Positions 10,689 through 23,105 of a DNA stretch of 35,574 nt are shown piece by piece. The translations under genes and the position numbers were made by a program. The stretch is taken from positions 1-35,574 of the forward strand of contig JAUVGH010000019.1 in assembly GCA_030593885.1 (NCBI GenBank), written 5' to 3'. The number at the start of each line of letters is the position of its first letter. The first letter of the stretch is position 1. This stretch comes from Methanomassiliicoccales archaeon. Lineage in GTDB: Archaea > Thermoplasmatota > Thermoplasmata > RBG-16-68-12 > SOIM01. The notes under the pieces were generated by a model. The model was not told the origin of the DNA and did not search any database. It worked only from the letters and a program-made list of their open reading frames with translations.

Positions 10689-13058
10689 TCACATGAAATC
10701 CTTGAGCGTCAGGTCCTTGTTGGTGGTCCTAACCTCCTTCTTCTTCTCTTTCTTCTTGAAGTCCCCCTCGAACAAGGTGGCCTGCTGGGACCCGGCGAGC
10801 AAGCTCTTCTCGTCCCAGTCGAAGTGGTCGGTTATGTAGGACAATGTGTGGGCTATCCTTCTCGCATAGTACTCCTTGTCCGGTGTTGACTCGAACGGTC
10901 TGCCGCTGACATACGGCTCCACTTCTAGCGGGGTCTTCTTTCCGTTGGTCACTATCCACGAGACCTTCATCCCCGGCGTGAATTCGTATCCCATTTTCTG
11001 GAGCTTTCGGGCGGCCTGCACGTTTGCCATTGAGTTCGGATTTGCGTACTGCTTCGGGTCCTTGCACGTCCTGGAGATGACAAGTTGGTCCGGGGGTACC
11101 TTGCCCTGCTGGACGTCCGATACTGTGTCCCTTGCGATCTTTATCACCCCGTTCACATCGTCCTCCAGCAATCTTTCGAAAACGACTTCCTGGGTCTTGC
11201 TTTGAAGGTCGAACGCATCCGTCCTCCGGAGCTCGTAGCCTCGCACTATCATCTTCTCTTCGGGCCAGACAGCCTTACCGACGTACCTCTTCTTCCTTCC
11301 GTGAGAGAAGAAAGCGGAAAGGACCTGCTCGAATTCCAGCACCGCACCTCCTTTGGAGAAGCGCTCGGCCGCCTTGGTACCGAACTCCACTGATTGCTCT
11401 AGATTCTCATGCGGCGATTTCAGAAAGATGCTGTCCGTGTCCCCATAAATGATCTGAATACCCTCTTCTTCCAGCTTGCCGATTATGCTTTTGATATTCT
11501 CCCTGGCGAATGCGGTGATGCTTGCTCCTATCTTGGGATTTGTGAACCTGTAGAATGCTGAAGCGAACACTCCGTAGAAGGCGTTCATCAGGGTCTTGAC
11601 CGCGTCCTGAAGGCCGTAATAGTACTTCCTCTCGTTCTCGGAAGCCGCCTCGTTCATCTTCCTCTTGATGTCATCCCTCTCTTTCATCAGCCTGTCCAGT
11701 ATTTTTGGTAGGAGACCCTCCTTCTGATCCGCGGAGAGGAAATGAACACCTATTGGGCTGACTGTCTGTCCGGAATCGTCCACTGTAGTGAAGCAAACGT
11801 TCTTTTCGATTATCAGGCTGGGATACATGGCCTTGAAGTCCAGCACGCACAGCCAATGGTGGATGCCGGGCTTGATGGCGTGGACATAACCGCCTTCAAT
11901 GGACTCGGTTGTCCTGTCCCTCCGGGTCATTGGGACCCCGATGTTGTTCTTGTCCGCCTCTCTGATTAGGATGGAGTCGATGAGTGTGGATGTTCTGCCG
12001 TTGAGGACCTCGTCAACCGGGAGCTTGGAGACAGTGGCCAGGTCCATGGACTTATTGATGATCTCGATCTTCTCCAGGATCCGCAGGGCCAGTTCAGCAT
12101 CCTTCAGGCAGTACTTGATCACCTTCTCGGAGTCCTTCTCCCATTCCTCGTCGATGCTCGAAGGGTCAACATCCCCTTTCTGCTCTCCCAGCAAGAGTTG
12201 TGCCACATGGTTGAGCGTTTCCTGTTTGGGCTTGAGCTGTTTCTTGGCATTCCACCACGCGTCCGCGATTATCCTCCCATGAGCCCTCCAGAATCGGTTG
12301 CCGATGTGCCGCAGGGGTGTGTCGTTCCTGCTCCATCTCAGGTTCCTGATGCCCAACTTCTCGGCCCTTTCCTCTATCACTGGAATGTCATATCCATCGA
12401 TGTTGTACCCGGTTATCACGTCCGGGTCTTCATCACGAATGAGCTTCTCGAAGTTCTCGATCATCTCTCTCTCTGTGCCCTCGAGGCGGACCTGTTTCAA
12501 TTTTCCATCCGCTCTGATTGCCACCCCGATGACCAGCAGGTGCCCATCCTTGATGCTGTTCTCTATGTCGAAGCTCAGGATCTTGAGCTCTGGGTGGAGA
12601 GGTTCGATCTCTTCGAAACCTTTGGCCCTGACCACCAGGTCAGTCGTTCTGTCCTTCTCGATCTCCTCCCCTTCGATCCTGACACTGGATGCAAGGTCCA
12701 TATCGTAGACGAAACGATGTGCGAACGGGATGTCCGCTGCCAGCACCTGCCTTGCTTCGCCAGCTCTGCATCTTTCCCTGTATTCTGGGGTCTTCCAGGG
12801 ATGCCTCAGGGTGATTTTGGAGCATTGAGTGGGCACATTCTCGTACATGAGCTCCTTGGGTTCGACCTTCAGGACCTCACCGTCCTTTCTCAGCTCGTCC
12901 AGCAGCCTCTCGGGCGGTTCCACTGCATAGAAGTAGGGCTTGAAACCCTCGTACCGGATCGTGATCGACTTGCCTTCCTTTGTTTTGCCGAACAGCTCAA
13001 CGGTCACATCGTCTCTATCGTAGGATGCCGTCAGAAGTCTAACGTCCCAAGTTCCCAT
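10689..13058 (-). CDS. polB: Family B replicative DNA polymerase
   Basis: A 789-residue archaeal PolB with proofreading exonuclease. Exo I is FDIE (D164, E166), Exo II YNIDGYD (N219, D224) and Exo III YCLKD (Y316, D320). Polymerase motif A is DFKAMYPSL (D407), motif B KTLMNAFYG (488-496) and motif C YGDTDS (538-543); the KKRY thumb motif follows at about 590. All catalytic residues are present, so both activities are expected. The C-terminus has QQATLFEGDF (about 758-767), a plausible PCNA-binding motif, then a basic stretch and a final LTLKDFM. The ATG lies one base after the stop of the YchF-type GTPase gene, so translation is coupled. It is the last gene of an apparent four-gene operon. 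Confidence 0.97.
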   Translation of the reverse strand: MGTWDVRLLTASYDRDDVTVELFGKTKEGKSITIRYEGFKPYFYAVEPPERLLDELRKDGEVLKVEPKELMYENVPTQCSKITLRHPWKTPEYRERCRAGEARQVLAADIPFAHRFVYDMDLASSVRIEGEEIEKDRTTDLVVRAKGFEEIEPLHPELKILSFDIENSIKDGHLLVIGVAIRADGKLKQVRLEGTEREMIENFEKLIRDEDPDVITGYNIDGYDIPVIEERAEKLGIRNLRWSRNDTPLRHIGNRFWRAHGRIIADAWWNAKKQLKPKQETLNHVAQLLLGEQKGDVDPSSIDEEWEKDSEKVIKYCLKDAELALRILEKIEIINKSMDLATVSKLPVDEVLNGRTSTLIDSILIREADKNNIGVPMTRRDRTTESIEGGYVHAIKPGIHHWLCVLDFKAMYPSLIIEKNVCFTTVDDSGQTVSPIGVHFLSADQKEGLLPKILDRLMKERDDIKRKMNEAASENERKYYYGLQDAVKTLMNAFYGVFASAFYRFTNPKIGASITAFARENIKSIIGKLEEEGIQIIYGDTDSIFLKSPHENLEQSVEFGTKAAERFSKGGAVLEFEQVLSAFFSHGRKKRYVGKAVWPEEKMIVRGYELRRTDAFDLQSKTQEVVFERLLEDDVNGVIKIARDTVSDVQQGKVPPDQLVISRTCKDPKQYANPNSMANVQAARKLQKMGYEFTPGMKVSWIVTNGKKTPLEVEPYVSGRPFESTPDKEYYARRIAHTLSYITDHFDWDEKSLLAGSQQATLFEGDFKKKEKKKEVRTTNKDLTLKDFM

Positions 13059-14270: not shown

Positions 14271-17200
14271 CTAAGAACCGGAATGGCGTTTACGCCTCTT
14301 TATCATGACGGTTTGGAGAGCTACTAACAACAAGGCCGGTAGAATGACGAATTCGAACTCGGGGATATCCCCATGGCTCGTGATATCTACATATTCAAAA
14401 GGAAGCCCCTCCCCCGGCGGAGCTCTATCATTGTTACCTGTCATGTTGTGGTCCTCGGACCAGTTTGTGGCAGCTTGTATGCCGGTATAGTCAGTAATGG
14501 AGCCGATCTCGCTTCTCAATACGGCAAAGTCGATGCAGCCAAACACGTCAGCACCTACATCCATGGTGCTAGCTCGCGCGGCACTGTCATCATCCAGGCC
14601 TGTGAGTGTGTCATACCATTCATTTCCCGTTCCTCCCCATGTGCCACTCCCAGCGAACCACTCGAGTCCATGGACAGTTCCCCCGCTACTGCCTGACATC
14701 TCAATCACCAGCCAATCATTGAGATTGTCGCCGTCAGTGTCGATGTAGATCCACCATGTGTAATTGGTTATTGTCGGTGGACCGCTGTTCTGGTAATCAG
14801 TTCTCAATCGAACATAAAGGTAGTTGGCGTCAATGTTGAAGTAGACTTCGAGAAGGTCGATACTGGGTAGTACGGCGTCATCACTATCTGTTACAATTGA
14901 TATCCAGGTCGCAGGCCAGATAGGGGCCATTGTCTTGGGGTTGACTTGCCCTCTCGAACCCTCTCCTCTTGTTATCGCTTCTGTAATATCTCCCTTAGAT
15001 GCCCAATCAGTGCTTGCGAAAACCACACCCATTTCCGATGATGATGCGCCAAGAATGACTGCGGAGATCTCTATCCTTGATGTGTCCTTGCCAACCTGGA
15101 CGGCGTCTGTGCAAAGCCATCCAGGGCTCCAGTGGCAGATCACCTTGTGTGTTACCATGCCGTAGATGCCGTTGATTCTTATCAGGTAATCAGGCTCTAC
15201 TCCGATTCCGCCTATGGGGGCCCCATCAGTATCATCGCTCTTGTTCGAATCGATGTAGATGTAGGTCACGTCCTCTCCCCCCATTCTATTCAGTCTCATC
15301 ACCGGGGGAGATGGTTGTCCTCCGCTGGACGGAGGGTGCTTGAGCCTCACCTGTGGGGCGCTCACTCCACCCAGTAGTTCGTTCTCGACCTCAAGATAGA
15401 AGTAGGTGGTGTCATCGGTGGCATCCTTGCTTACGGCGGATTCCTGGATATCAAGATCTGGATTGACAATTGGGGAAGCGTCATTATCGATCTCCTTCTG
15501 GACGGACTCCCAGTCCCCGAACCAGCCGTCGATGACCCTGTCGGTCGGTGAGTCCTCGAAGTAGGCCTTCGCACCGCTTCCTCCGATTGTGTAAGGGGTG
15601 TCGGTTATGATGTCCGCGATCGAGATCTCGATCAAGTCCCCATTCGTTGACGAGGCAGTTTCGACTGAGACCGTCCTGGTCGCCGTCGAACCTTCATCAA
15701 TGACGAAACTCCCAATCGGCTGGGCCAAGGCGCCAAATACATCGAAACTCACGCTGTCAATCTGCACATCGGCCCCCTTTGCTTCAAACGTCAATTGCAT
15801 GATATCGTTCGCACCGTTTCCAACAACAAGGTACTGGCTGAACTCTGCCTGCCTGACGAGCAATGCACCATGGGTGGGTCCAATGCTGACAGAGGAATAC
15901 GTCACACCGCCCTCCCCATCATCCGCGCAGAACATCAGCCTGAAGTCTCCGGAGAGGTCGAAGCGACCATTGGAGGCGACTTGACCTTCCAGTCTGTTTC
16001 CCGCGACATCAGCCTCTCCGATCGCGATCTGGTTCCATTTCGTGAAGTTCAATCTGTCTTGGGTATCCTCATACGCGTACATTGGAACGCTGACCACCTC
16101 TCTGGCGCCGCCAAAGATCTCTATCATGTAATCTGCGCCCAAGTCCTTGACAGTATATCCAGTGCTCGGGTTATTATCCTGGTCAAAGAAGAGGTAGAAC
16201 GAGTCGTGTCCTGTCGTATCGCCCAGAGCGGCCCCCTGGACTTCGATCAGGAACGAGAAGAACCCGTTGTCAAGAGTGTGTCCGTATCCGGTAATGGATG
16301 TATCTGGGTTGGGTCCTTGACCTTGGTCCGTGTACAGGTCCACTCCGCTCCAATCCTGGAACTGACCGTCGATCGTTATGGGTGAAACCTGCCTCTCTGC
16401 CTGAGGGACTATCCCATAGAGTCCAAGAACCAGAATCGCGAACGCGGCGGCCAAAGCAACATATCTGATCCCAGCCCTCTTGCCGGGCCCTCTTGTGATG
16501 TTCGACAGGGCCAATCCATTGGTGAAACCGTTCCCGTTAATGAGGCCGTTGACCCTTCCTCTTCCATTTACAATTCCCCTTCCGTTCACAAGTCCTTTGC
16601 CGTTGACCATTCCAGTTCCGTTTATCCTGCCCAGCCCGTTCACAAGGCCGGTTCCGTTTATCCTGCCCTTGCCGTTGACCATACCTTTCCCATTCGTGAG
16701 CCCAGATCCTTTGGCTATCTTCCGGGGAATCATTCCTATTTCCTCTTCCATCAGTTCTTCTTCGAGAATGTCCTCCGTCACCACGCCTTCATCAAGCGAC
16801 TCAAGCGGGAGTTCCTCGTCTGGTCCAACGAACTCGATTCCGCACGAAGGACAAGTATTGGACCCTAGAGGAATTGTAGAACCACACGAAGGACAGTCCT
16901 CCGCAAGCAAATCCTCTAGGGCCGCCATGGCGTCTTCCTCCTTACCGAGTTCAATGCCTGCCGCCGTCGCGCTTTCATCGACGATCTCCCGGTAGCAGGA
17001 AGCAGCCTCGTCAAGCCTGCCTAGTTTAGAAAACAACTCTGCCTTGGCAATCCAAGCGCTCTTCATTTCGGGCCGGATTGTCAACGCCCTGTCATACGAT
17101 TTCAAAGCCTCCTCGTAATTCTCCATCTTCCTAAGGATACCTCCTCTGGCTATCCACAGTTCTGCATCCTTGGGGTTCTCCAGAAGCTTCATATCAAACA

Positions 17201-17957
17201 ATGAAAGTGATGATTTCTCCTCGCCCACCTTCTCCATCTCTGCGATGAACGCTTGGTCCTGGACCACTCTCTCGAAGGCCGTGCCGCACTCCGAGCAATC
17301 CGTGTCATATGCACTTACGATGGTCCTGCAGACCGGGCACTCGAACTCCTCCTCCATCGACTCCTCGAGCAACCTTTGGCTCTCCACCGGCTCGACGTAC
17401 ATCATCTGGAGAGCTTCCTTGATGGATTTGGCCGTCCTCATCCCTATCTGTCGCACCTTGGCGAGTTCTTCCACCGTGGATTTGGTGAGTTTGTTCAGCG
17501 AGCTGTAACCCGCCTTACAGAGGACCTCTGCCCTGAGCCTGCCGACCCCCGGGATCTTCATGATCTCCTGGACATCCTCTTCCACGTATTCGCCGACGAT
17601 CTTCCTCGGCCTCCTGCGGCGCTCAACCTCGGGCGCAATCTCCTCCAAACCCTCCACCGCGAAGCTTGAACCGCACGATGGACATTCCTTGGCATCTGGG
17701 TCAACGAACGCACCGCACATCGGGCATCCGAATTTCTCCCCCTCCGGTATTATGTCATGGAATGAATACGTCTCGTGACAATCCCCACATTCAAAAACTA
17801 TCTTTGCCGAGCGCTCACAGACGGGACACTTCTCCGCCTCCTGAACGGGTTGAAGTCCCTCTCTCACCGTCTTGACACCGCATGATCCGCACTCGATGAG
17901 AGGCAGTAGCTTACCGTTGCAAGAAGGGCATGAGCCCTCCCTCTGTTCGTCCTCCAT
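14271..17957 (-). CDS. 1228-residue zinc-ribbon/HhH/TPR membrane protein with NG repeats and extracellular modules
   Basis: No named family covers this protein. Cytoplasmic part: three zinc ribbons (CxxC pairs at about 10/23, 44/57 and 78/92), a double helix-hairpin-helix DNA-binding-like region (130-185, IPGVGRLRAEVLCKAGY), a fourth zinc ribbon (207/221), two TPRs (about 260-325) and a fifth ribbon (355/369). A hexapeptide repeat follows, (V/I)NGxGx, about eleven copies (421-487). One membrane helix (about 498-517) then leads to an extracellular half with three beta modules that look CBM9- or DOMON-like (starting near 525 with ITIDGQFQDW, near 807 with VIDGWFGDW, and near 1030). The C-terminus is IPEFEFVILP, a hydrophobic helix and KRRKRH, resembling a PEF-CTERM sorting tail. 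The ATG overlaps the upstream TPR gene's stop (TGATG), so translation is coupled. The domain names are from visible motifs; the function is unknown. Confidence 0.85.
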   Translation of the reverse strand: MEDEQREGSCPSCNGKLLPLIECGSCGVKTVREGLQPVQEAEKCPVCERSAKIVFECGDCHETYSFHDIIPEGEKFGCPMCGAFVDPDAKECPSCGSSFAVEGLEEIAPEVERRRRPRKIVGEYVEEDVQEIMKIPGVGRLRAEVLCKAGYSSLNKLTKSTVEELAKVRQIGMRTAKSIKEALQMMYVEPVESQRLLEESMEEEFECPVCRTIVSAYDTDCSECGTAFERVVQDQAFIAEMEKVGEEKSSLSLFDMKLLENPKDAELWIARGGILRKMENYEEALKSYDRALTIRPEMKSAWIAKAELFSKLGRLDEAASCYREIVDESATAAGIELGKEEDAMAALEDLLAEDCPSCGSTIPLGSNTCPSCGIEFVGPDEELPLESLDEGVVTEDILEEELMEEEIGMIPRKIAKGSGLTNGKGMVNGKGRINGTGLVNGLGRINGTGMVNGKGLVNGRGIVNGRGRVNGLINGNGFTNGLALSNITRGPGKRAGIRYVALAAAFAILVLGLYGIVPQAERQVSPITIDGQFQDWSGVDLYTDQGQGPNPDTSITGYGHTLDNGFFSFLIEVQGAALGDTTGHDSFYLFFDQDNNPSTGYTVKDLGADYMIEIFGGAREVVSVPMYAYEDTQDRLNFTKWNQIAIGEADVAGNRLEGQVASNGRFDLSGDFRLMFCADDGEGGVTYSSVSIGPTHGALLVRQAEFSQYLVVGNGANDIMQLTFEAKGADVQIDSVSFDVFGALAQPIGSFVIDEGSTATRTVSVETASSTNGDLIEISIADIITDTPYTIGGSGAKAYFEDSPTDRVIDGWFGDWESVQKEIDNDASPIVNPDLDIQESAVSKDATDDTTYFYLEVENELLGGVSAPQVRLKHPPSSGGQPSPPVMRLNRMGGEDVTYIYIDSNKSDDTDGAPIGGIGVEPDYLIRINGIYGMVTHKVICHWSPGWLCTDAVQVGKDTSRIEISAVILGASSSEMGVVFASTDWASKGDITEAITRGEGSRGQVNPKTMAPIWPATWISIVTDSDDAVLPSIDLLEVYFNIDANYLYVRLRTDYQNSGPPTITNYTWWIYIDTDGDNLNDWLVIEMSGSSGGTVHGLEWFAGSGTWGGTGNEWYDTLTGLDDDSAARASTMDVGADVFGCIDFAVLRSEIGSITDYTGIQAATNWSEDHNMTGNNDRAPPGEGLPFEYVDITSHGDIPEFEFVILPALLLVALQTVMIKRRKRHSGS
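16497..16697 (-). repeat. Tandem (V/I)NGxGx hexapeptide-coding repeat
   Basis: Roughly eleven degenerate 18-base units encode (V/I/T)NG(K/T/L/R)G(M/R/L/I), with one four-residue unit near the end. Codons vary between units although the peptide pattern holds, which argues for selection on the peptide rather than recent DNA duplication. The repeat lies between the fifth zinc ribbon and the membrane helix. Confidence 0.85.
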
Positions 17958-18655
17958 CAATCTTCTCCCCCGGACTCAGCCTGTGCCTCTTCCCGAGCCT
18001 TCTTGGCCTTCTCGAAACCCGGGTCGAGCGACAGTGCTTTGTCGAAGTTGTATATCGCGTTGTCCGCCTTGCCCTGCTCAAGCAATGCCTGCCCTTTCTG
18101 GAACCATGCCATCACGAAATCCGGTCTTTCTTTCAGAACGTGGTTGTAGCATTTCATGGCCTCTTCCCATCTCTTCATCTTCATCAGTGTAGCGCCCTTG
18201 TTGTTCCACGCCATCACGTACGAGTCATCGATCTGCAATGCTGCGTCGAAGCACTCCAATGCATCCTCCGTTTTCCCTGCTTTGGCCAGCAGTCTTCCCT
18301 TGTTCACCCAGGCAATCTCGTGCTCAGGATTGATGTCCAATGCCCTGTCGAAGCACTTGAGAGACTTGGACATCTTGCCCATTCTGTACAGCACCACCCC
18401 CTTGTTCACCCAGGCGTCTGAGTATTCTGGTCGGAGCTTCAGGGCCTTATTGTGGCATTTGACGGCTTCCAGATACTTACCAGCTCTTTCGAGCAACAGT
18501 CCCTTGTTGTTCCATCCGATCGCGTTCTCTGGGTTGTCCTGGATCGCCTGATTGTAGTACTGCATCGCATTCGCATACTCCCCCTTCCGATAGAGTGCAT
18601 TACCTTTCACTATGCGATGGTTTGCTCTAGCTCTGATTCGAGCATTTCCAGTCAT
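17957..18655 (-). CDS. TPR-repeat protein, partner of the 1228-residue protein
   Basis: A 232-residue soluble protein consisting almost entirely of about six consecutive TPRs of the YNQAIQDNPENAIGWNNKG type (from about residue 20 to 220), a superhelical protein-binding scaffold. The start is the ATG at 18655, with GGTGGAG seven bases upstream and a TATA box about 50 bases away; a TTG 13 codons earlier is in frame but would lie too near the promoter. Its TGA overlaps the ATG of the large membrane protein by one base, and that protein also has TPRs and zinc ribbons, so the two are likely to work together. First gene of the operon that ends with polB. Confidence 0.9.
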   Translation of the reverse strand: MTGNARIRARANHRIVKGNALYRKGEYANAMQYYNQAIQDNPENAIGWNNKGLLLERAGKYLEAVKCHNKALKLRPEYSDAWVNKGVVLYRMGKMSKSLKCFDRALDINPEHEIAWVNKGRLLAKAGKTEDALECFDAALQIDDSYVMAWNNKGATLMKMKRWEEAMKCYNHVLKERPDFVMAWFQKGQALLEQGKADNAIYNFDKALSLDPGFEKAKKAREEAQAESGGED

Positions 18656-18700
18656 GCGGCAGGCTCCACCCTTAGATTCGAGAAAAAAAGACAACTTGAC

Positions 18701-22154: not shown

Positions 22155-23105
22155 ATGAAGAGTAACATCTCTTCAGTTGCAGCCATGGCAGGACTCATGG
22201 TCATTGCTCAGGCCATCGCGCTTCTCATGGCCATTCCGTTCATCGAGGCCGAGCTCCAGGTATTCGAAGATCCTGAGGACGTGGCAACCCCCATCTGGTA
22301 CTTCCTATTGATAATACTCGTAACGGCCGTCATCCTATTGATGGTCAAGCTCAGGAGGAGGAACATCCTCAAACACGTGATCCTCTTCGCCTTCGGCCTC
22401 ACTCTTTTCATGGTGTTCGACATTCTCTTCTTATTGGCCTTGAGCCAGATTACCTCGGACATCTCGGTAATATCTTGGGTTTCGTTCATCTCCGCACTAG
22501 TGGTTGCCGCTGGCTTGACATTCCTGCTGTACAGATTCCCCGAATGGTATGTGGTCGATTTCGTGGGCGTGTTCGTTGCCGCTGCCGTGGCATCCATTCT
22601 GGGGATCTCCCTCGCCATTCTACCTGTTTTTGTTCTGCTGATAATCCTGGCCCTCTACGACGCCGTCGCAGTCTACAAGACCAAACACATGATAACCCTG
22701 GCCGACGCCGTCACCATGGAGAGACTTCCGGTACTTCTGGTGGTTCCAACAAGCAAGGGCTACTCGTTCCTGAAACAGAAGAGCATCAAGGAGCAGATTG
22801 AAAAGAAGGAGAAAAGGGACGCGGTCTTCATGGGGCTGGGGGACATATCCATACCTACGGTCCTGGCAGTTTCAGCCTTTGCGTATCTTCCTGGCAAGGA
22901 CGGGCTTTTCACATTCTCTCACGTTCTTGTCGCCATTGTCACGCTTGTGGGCTGTATGATCGGATACCTCATCCTCATGCGGTTCGTGATGAAGGGCAAT
23001 CCTCATGCCGGACTCCCTCTTCTGAACGGAGGGGCGATCGCCGGCTACCTTCTTTCCTATCTGATATTCTTCCCCGGCGACTTCACATTCGGGTTCATCT
23101 TGTGA
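22155..23105 (+). CDS. Presenilin/signal-peptide-peptidase family (A22) intramembrane aspartyl protease
   Basis: A 316-residue protein with about nine membrane helices. It carries the two catalytic aspartates of family A22 in their motifs: YD at 168-169 (ALYDAVAVYKTKHM) and GLGD at 227-230. The C-terminal PAL region is represented by GLPLLNGG (about 286-293). A long charged loop with many lysines (about 200-222) separates the catalytic helices, as in other archaeal homologues. It should cleave membrane-spanning substrates such as signal-peptide remnants. It is translationally coupled to aIF2-beta and followed eight bases later by a phosphodiesterase. Physiological substrate unknown. Confidence 0.9.
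   Translation: MKSNISSVAAMAGLMVIAQAIALLMAIPFIEAELQVFEDPEDVATPIWYFLLIILVTAVILLMVKLRRRNILKHVILFAFGLTLFMVFDILFLLALSQITSDISVISWVSFISALVVAAGLTFLLYRFPEWYVVDFVGVFVAAAVASILGISLAILPVFVLLIILALYDAVAVYKTKHMITLADAVTMERLPVLLVVPTSKGYSFLKQKSIKEQIEKKEKRDAVFMGLGDISIPTVLAVSAFAYLPGKDGLFTFSHVLVAIVTLVGCMIGYLILMRFVMKGNPHAGLPLLNGGAIAGYLLSYLIFFPGDFTFGFIL

Follow-up and report, generated by a model that had tools for sequence, protein, structure and literature searches.

A predicted membrane-spanning chimera of uncultured Thermoplasmatota with a conserved cytoplasmic half and a putatively recombining outer half

Can a single archaeal gene encode both a zinc ribbon-rich cytoplasmic platform and a large outer half built of CBM9-like modules, and if so, what might such a protein do? 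The question is raised by a minus-strand open reading frame in the stretch of DNA analysed here (the window, 35,574 nucleotides of contig JAUVGH010000019.1 in assembly GCA_030593885.1, labelled Methanomassiliicoccales archaeon). The ORF occupies 14271-17960 and encodes 1229 aa counted from a TTG codon, which is residue 1 in the numbering of the chimera protein used here. The likelier start is the ATG one codon past the TTG, at 17955-17957; it shares bases with the stop codon of the upstream TPR gene (TGATG) and matches the end, 17957, given by the first-pass annotation.

Organization of the gene

The components run from zinc ribbons (five), an HHH_5 domain and two TPRs through Asn-Gly (NG) hexads and a membrane helix to CBM9-related modules and a PEF-type tail:

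17957..18694, minus strand: upstream TPR protein gene, 245 aa; overlaps the chimera start, neighbour conserved in most families
14271..17957, minus strand: whole gene, chimeric membrane-spanning protein; 1228 aa from ATG, 1229 aa from TTG; supported by orthologues
17871..17939, minus strand: zinc ribbon 1 (Cys 11/14/24/27); four Cys invariant in 21 rows
17769..17834, minus strand: zinc ribbon 2 (Cys 45/48/58/61); four Cys invariant
17664..17732, minus strand: zinc ribbon 3 (Cys 79/82/93/96); not kept by G006 or by most of the g5 orthologues
17400..17570, minus strand: HHH_5 domain with two helix-hairpin-helix motifs, residues 131-187; Pfam E 2e-8
17277..17345, minus strand: zinc ribbon 4 (Cys 208/211/222/225); four Cys invariant
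16962..17171, minus strand: two TPRs, residues 264-333; Pfam, AlphaFold/Foldseek
16833..16901, minus strand: zinc ribbon 5 (Cys 356/359/370/373); Pfam DZR, alignment
16512..16706, minus strand: Asn-Gly hexad repeat, about residues 419-483; Lys/Arg-rich, predicted disordered
16407..16469, minus strand: membrane helix, residues 498-518; hydropathy, AlphaFold helix, basic residues on the N-terminal side
15861..16379, minus strand: outer module 1, CBM9-related (IDGxFxDW ... DxDxxxxTGY); AlphaFold, hhalign, PDB profile search
15558..15863, minus strand: Ig-like beta domain in the interval between modules 1 and 2; AlphaFold
14961..15554, minus strand: outer module 2, CBM9-related; AlphaFold, hhalign, PDB profile search
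14370..14933, minus strand: outer module 3; hhalign 85% to module 1, AlphaFold weak here
14274..14366, minus strand: PEF-type tail (IPEF, hydrophobic stretch, KRRKR); PEF-CTERM profile, family-wide tail count

Orthologues and gene order

Matches were present in all 41 genomes searched. Each of the other four genomes in the window's family has a full-length orthologue, with 57-83% overall identity to the window protein, and at least 28 of the 37 genomes of the order have a match to the N-terminal half at E <= 1e-70. Some orthologues come from MAGs labelled Thermoplasmata or Euryarchaeota, and two are labelled Methanomassiliicoccales; the family-wide alignments A1 and A2 proved too diverged to scan contigs with. 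The same architecture thus recurs in relatives across the order, and its core in other classes of the phylum (see below); such recurrence is what the first-pass annotation had named as support for a family.

The arrangement PPS <-> TPR gene - chimera - ychF - polB is shared by families f1-f4 of the order, and a single-contig genome shows part of it together with the same domain join. In G009, which belongs to another family of the order, the PPS and ychF matches lie only 118 bases apart at a clean junction that holds neither the chimera nor the TPR gene, so that these two genes appear to be gained or lost as a pair in most of the order. Most genomes of the genus-level group g5 carry the chimera, but no upstream TPR gene was detected in them. 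The conserved neighbourhood also includes, at window positions 22155-23105 on the plus strand, a signal-peptide-peptidase/presenilin-type intramembrane protease (Pfam E 2.3e-74).

An assembly or annotation artefact that fused two genes might be suspected, given that the window is a MAG contig and that the frame of the G008 orthologue is interrupted within module 1. However, the same join is present across the order, including in the single-contig genome, and full-length orthologues share the same gene order across families, which leads us to reject an assembly join. Two separate genes were likewise sought and none was found, the short frames holding N-terminal halves being truncated by contig ends. 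We consider the probability of an artefact negligible, and the first-pass proposal of a genuine membrane-spanning chimera in one frame is upheld.

The cytoplasmic half

All five ribbons follow the CxxC...CxxC pattern with four Cys each. Ribbons 1, 2 and 4 are invariant across 20 orthologues (an alignment of 21 rows), while G006 lacks ribbons 3 and 5, and most of g5 lacks ribbon 3. Pfam detects HHH_5 at residues 131-185 (E 2e-8), TPR_1 (two repeats, E 1.6e-11) and the double-zinc-ribbon family DZR. In the AlphaFold cytoplasmic model the HHH and TPR parts are confident and the NG repeat is disordered; Foldseek on this model confirmed the TPR part alone. By Pfam, alignment and hydropathy, the five ribbons, HHH, TPRs, NG hexads and membrane helix initially recognized from motifs are all confirmed.

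These modules resemble those of archaeal cytoplasmic proteins with double zinc ribbons, TPRs and HHH motifs, and the same modules occur in soluble-looking proteins of the window's own genome. In the chimera, unlike those proteins, they continue through the NG repeat and a membrane helix into modules of the surface. A 1508-aa frame on contig C66 of that genome (L065:3642-8165) appears to encode a class I tRNA synthetase (Anticodon_1, DUF5915) continued by a double zinc ribbon, HHH_5 and DUF835, and its ribbon/HHH modules are the same as those of the chimera.

The first-pass annotation suggested a sensor or tether linking the cell surface to nucleic acid or translation machinery; on that view this half would hold DNA, RNA or the ribosome at the membrane. 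The canonical IPGVG hairpin, found in the HHH_5 domain of the window's own family and some others, would suit such a role, as would several zinc ribbons, the basic NG repeat and the adjoining ychF and polB genes. However, the hairpin glycines (GxG), although kept in f1, g9 and G006, are absent from both hairpins throughout family f2, and the g5 orthologues of f4 have a degenerate hairpin 1, with the zinc ligands retained in both groups. Such loss across whole families, next to retained zinc ligands, disfavours nucleic-acid binding. Moreover, the ychF-polB order exists without the chimera gene, and paralogues that lack HHH keep the constant core described below. A link to nucleic acid or translation is, in our estimation, very unlikely.

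NG repeat, membrane helix and tail

The NG region contains 11 Lys/Arg and no Asp/Glu, and its copy number differs among congeneric genomes. The hexad period led us to consider a left-handed beta-helix, but AlphaFold shows no structure (pLDDT about 30). Hydropathy reaches membrane-helix strength in two stretches only, at about residues 496-520 and 1202-1221. With a cytoplasmic half of 490 aa ahead of the first of these, the chimera has no N-terminal signal peptide.

Like the PEF-CTERM/archaeosortase proteins (TIGR03024), the chimera ends in a PEF motif, a hydrophobic stretch and a basic end, and an exosortase-family enzyme is present in close relatives. This tripartite C-terminal end is found in 39 of 40 family members with a closed C-end. 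In contrast to PEF-CTERM proteins, however, the window tail falls below the curated cut-off for TIGR03024 (16.9 bits vs 23) and a long cytoplasmic half precedes the N-side helix. An exosortase/archaeosortase-family enzyme is encoded in G001-G004, in 11 of 13 near-complete relatives and in 25 of the 41 genomes searched; none was found in the window's own genome, which is 86% complete.

The outer half

Pfam has no match to the outer half, NCBIfam has no family above cut-off, and no curated model of either collection covers it. Modules 1 and 2 are homologous to each other (hhalign 99.8%). A profile of the two searched against 177,635 PDB sequences returned, as its top two matches, the CBM9 chains 1i82 (E 0.0044) and 7nwn (E 0.038), whereas hhalign of the same modules against a small CBM9_1 set from relatives was not significant; homology to CBM9, as judged by profile comparison, is detectable but remote. 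Module 3 is probably a divergent repeat of module 1, given the hhalign score of 85%, and its position is taken by other domains in other families. A higher score for module 3 (89.9%) was discarded, since it traces to a single orthologue that ends in a genuine CBM9 domain.

The AlphaFold model is of good confidence for module 1, the Ig-like domain and module 2, but poor for module 3. Of the three CBM9/DOMON-like modules claimed at first, two are well supported, the third is weaker, and the Ig-like domain had been missed. Foldseek searches with the multi-domain outer model were dominated by long beta-rich chains, with 1ug9 alone suggestive. A glucodextranase C-domain (PF09985) is not supported: the Foldseek probability for 1ug9 was 1.00, but the alignment is multi-domain with high rmsd, and the domain was found in 0 of 21 genomes.

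The modules resemble the CBD9-like sandwich of the Thermotoga maritima xylanase CBM9 (1i82), modules 1 and 2 sharing the IDGxxxDxW start and the later Dsv.fiD....TGY. In contrast to the Thermotoga domain, they have no attached enzyme, lie below Pfam detection and are joined to a helix and a cytoplasmic half. In the alignment, the Trp preceding 'EQDSVEIF' of 1i82, an aromatic sugar-binding residue, has no counterpart in the module consensus, and the sugar-sandwiching residues of CBM9 appear not to be kept in the outer modules.

Localized divergence of the outer half

We compared three genomes of one genus (the window's, G001 and G002). The N-terminal half is 95-96% identical within the genus, with synonymous differences mostly at 0.02-0.18 per site. 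These rise to 0.5-0.9, close to saturation, from about residue 880-920 (window vs G001) or 640-680 (window vs G002), and return to 0.13-0.16 in ychF. A segment test delimited divergent blocks in the chimera at codons 916-1216, 674-1224 and 686-1224, each stronger than anything obtained in 500 shuffles; the fraction of synonymous differences is 0.53-0.61 inside the outer blocks vs 0.09-0.10 outside. Paralogues on contigs C19, C90 and C30 have blocks at 304-488, 867-1063 and 1110-1240, respectively, all past their membrane helices; a further C90 block (76-127) falls in the NG repeat, where the alignment register is unsafe. The same test found no divergent block in ychF and a weak one in the upstream TPR gene. 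In polB (window 10689-13058, minus strand) there is a milder block: synonymous differences are about 0.42 at codons 270-400 vs 0.11 elsewhere, in the window genome only.

Across module 3, the congeners share 67-71% identity with the other genus but 53-58% with the window. The simplest reading is that the outer half exchanges segments by recombination, although strain chimerism in MAGs could mimic this pattern, and the polB block also speaks against it. A tree of the outer half rejects the full-length proteins as one clade (AU p 0.0002; p = 0.014-0.02 after odd or long rows had been shifted or dropped). This is a hint that ectodomains were exchanged long ago, although long branches make the tree unsafe. 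The apparent exchange of outer segments is also in keeping with the earlier proposal that the outer half is exposed at the surface.

This pattern bears on the possibility of a structural tether, in which the protein would anchor an S-layer or envelope lattice and its scaffold would tie to a cortical or cell-shape structure, with no part in recognition or signalling. Two membrane attachments (the helix and the PEF tail), a large beta-rich ectodomain, a disordered linker and a TPR scaffold are consistent with such a tether, as are the many paralogues per genome with their different cytoplasmic halves. Localized ectodomain exchange and family-specific outer C-terminal domains are harder to reconcile with a lattice, though variation is possible in S-layer proteins too. 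We regard a purely structural tether as possible, though doubtful.

A wider family in Thermoplasmatota

Judged from sequence, the chimera belongs to a large family in Thermoplasmatota that combines a constant core with cytoplasmic halves that can be exchanged. Of 54 members tested, 52 have the core (NG repeat, membrane helix, CBM9-like modules). Among the 54 distinct members with upstream sequence, 53 have the membrane helix directly ahead of the first CBM9-like module and 53 have the NG repeat. With an outer-part profile, 16 of the 243 genomes drawn from the whole phylum, belonging to this and other classes, proved to carry the family; several of these matches also bear the NG repeat, though it is absent from the search profile. 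Outer C-terminal domains differ among families. Two complete relatives encode a TPR - NG - helix - CBM9-like - PEF member, one of them with a BNR match ahead of the tail. One complete-genome relative with a member is presumably Aciduliprofundum boonei; as a cultured relative thus likely holds a member, the function of the family could be tested.

The window's own genome encodes at least six paralogues. Their N-terminal halves comprise HHH, ribbons and TPR (contig C30), TPR and a ribbon (C55), or little cytoplasmic part beyond the NG repeat (C19 and C90), while that of the C7 paralogue contains a KaiC-like ATPase (Pfam E 5.7e-22) with TPR and zinc ribbons. The C7 frame (L063:2-6400) encodes at least 2133 aa, its KaiC-family ATPase, TPRs and zinc ribbons being followed by the NG repeat and membrane helix.

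Such a paralogue raises the possibility of a transmembrane sensor, in which an outside ligand would alter the cytoplasmic platform and pass a signal on via a TPR partner, with the KaiC-like ATPase protein as an output-bearing sibling. The N-terminal position of that ATPase and the swappable cytoplasmic halves on a constant core suit a sensor. However, the chimera has no catalytic or known signalling domain, and a disordered NG linker would be a poor rigid transmitter; we consider a sensor unlikely.

Surface recognition as the best explanation

The explanation that we favour, with about even confidence, is a membrane-anchored surface-recognition protein that combines a diversifying ectodomain with a cytoplasmic docking scaffold. 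From the computed architecture, conservation, synteny, family membership and localized divergence, we infer its topology, binding, processing, partner and recognition role as follows. The zinc ribbons, HHH fold and TPRs would form a cytoplasmic protein-binding platform, probably working with the TPR protein of the upstream gene as its likely partner, and the basic, flexible NG repeat would bridge platform and membrane helix. Outside, the tandem CBM9-related modules with the Ig-like domain may recognize a glycan, some Ca2+-dependent ligand or an adjacent protein of the envelope. An archaeosortase probably acts on the PEF tail, in which case the ectodomain would be held at both ends, by the helix on the N-side and by a lipid or helix on the C-side. 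Recombination would diversify the ectodomain, as expected for a part facing viruses, competitors or variable ligands.

More tentatively, the family may represent a phylum-wide class of inside-out receptors that constitutes a surface-recognition repertoire, with segment-exchanging ectodomains and a constant core to which various adaptors (zinc ribbon-HHH-TPR, KaiC-like ATPase, TPR only, or none) can be attached.

Our literature searches found no paper describing the family. In the cell-wall-associated genomic island of Haloquadratum walsbyi, archaeal surface genes are likewise reported to vary between close strains (PMC4535781). There a multi-gene island varies, whereas in the chimera outer segments of one gene do so and the cytoplasmic half is conserved. 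Uncultured Thermoplasmatota thereby gain a defined set of membrane-spanning surface proteins, apparently conserved inside and recombining outside, a combination that points to a recognition layer or one exposed to viruses.

Directly 3' of a family paralogue on contig C49 of the window's own genome lies a repeat-rich, secreted-looking ORF of at least 1561 aa (L062:4318-9003).
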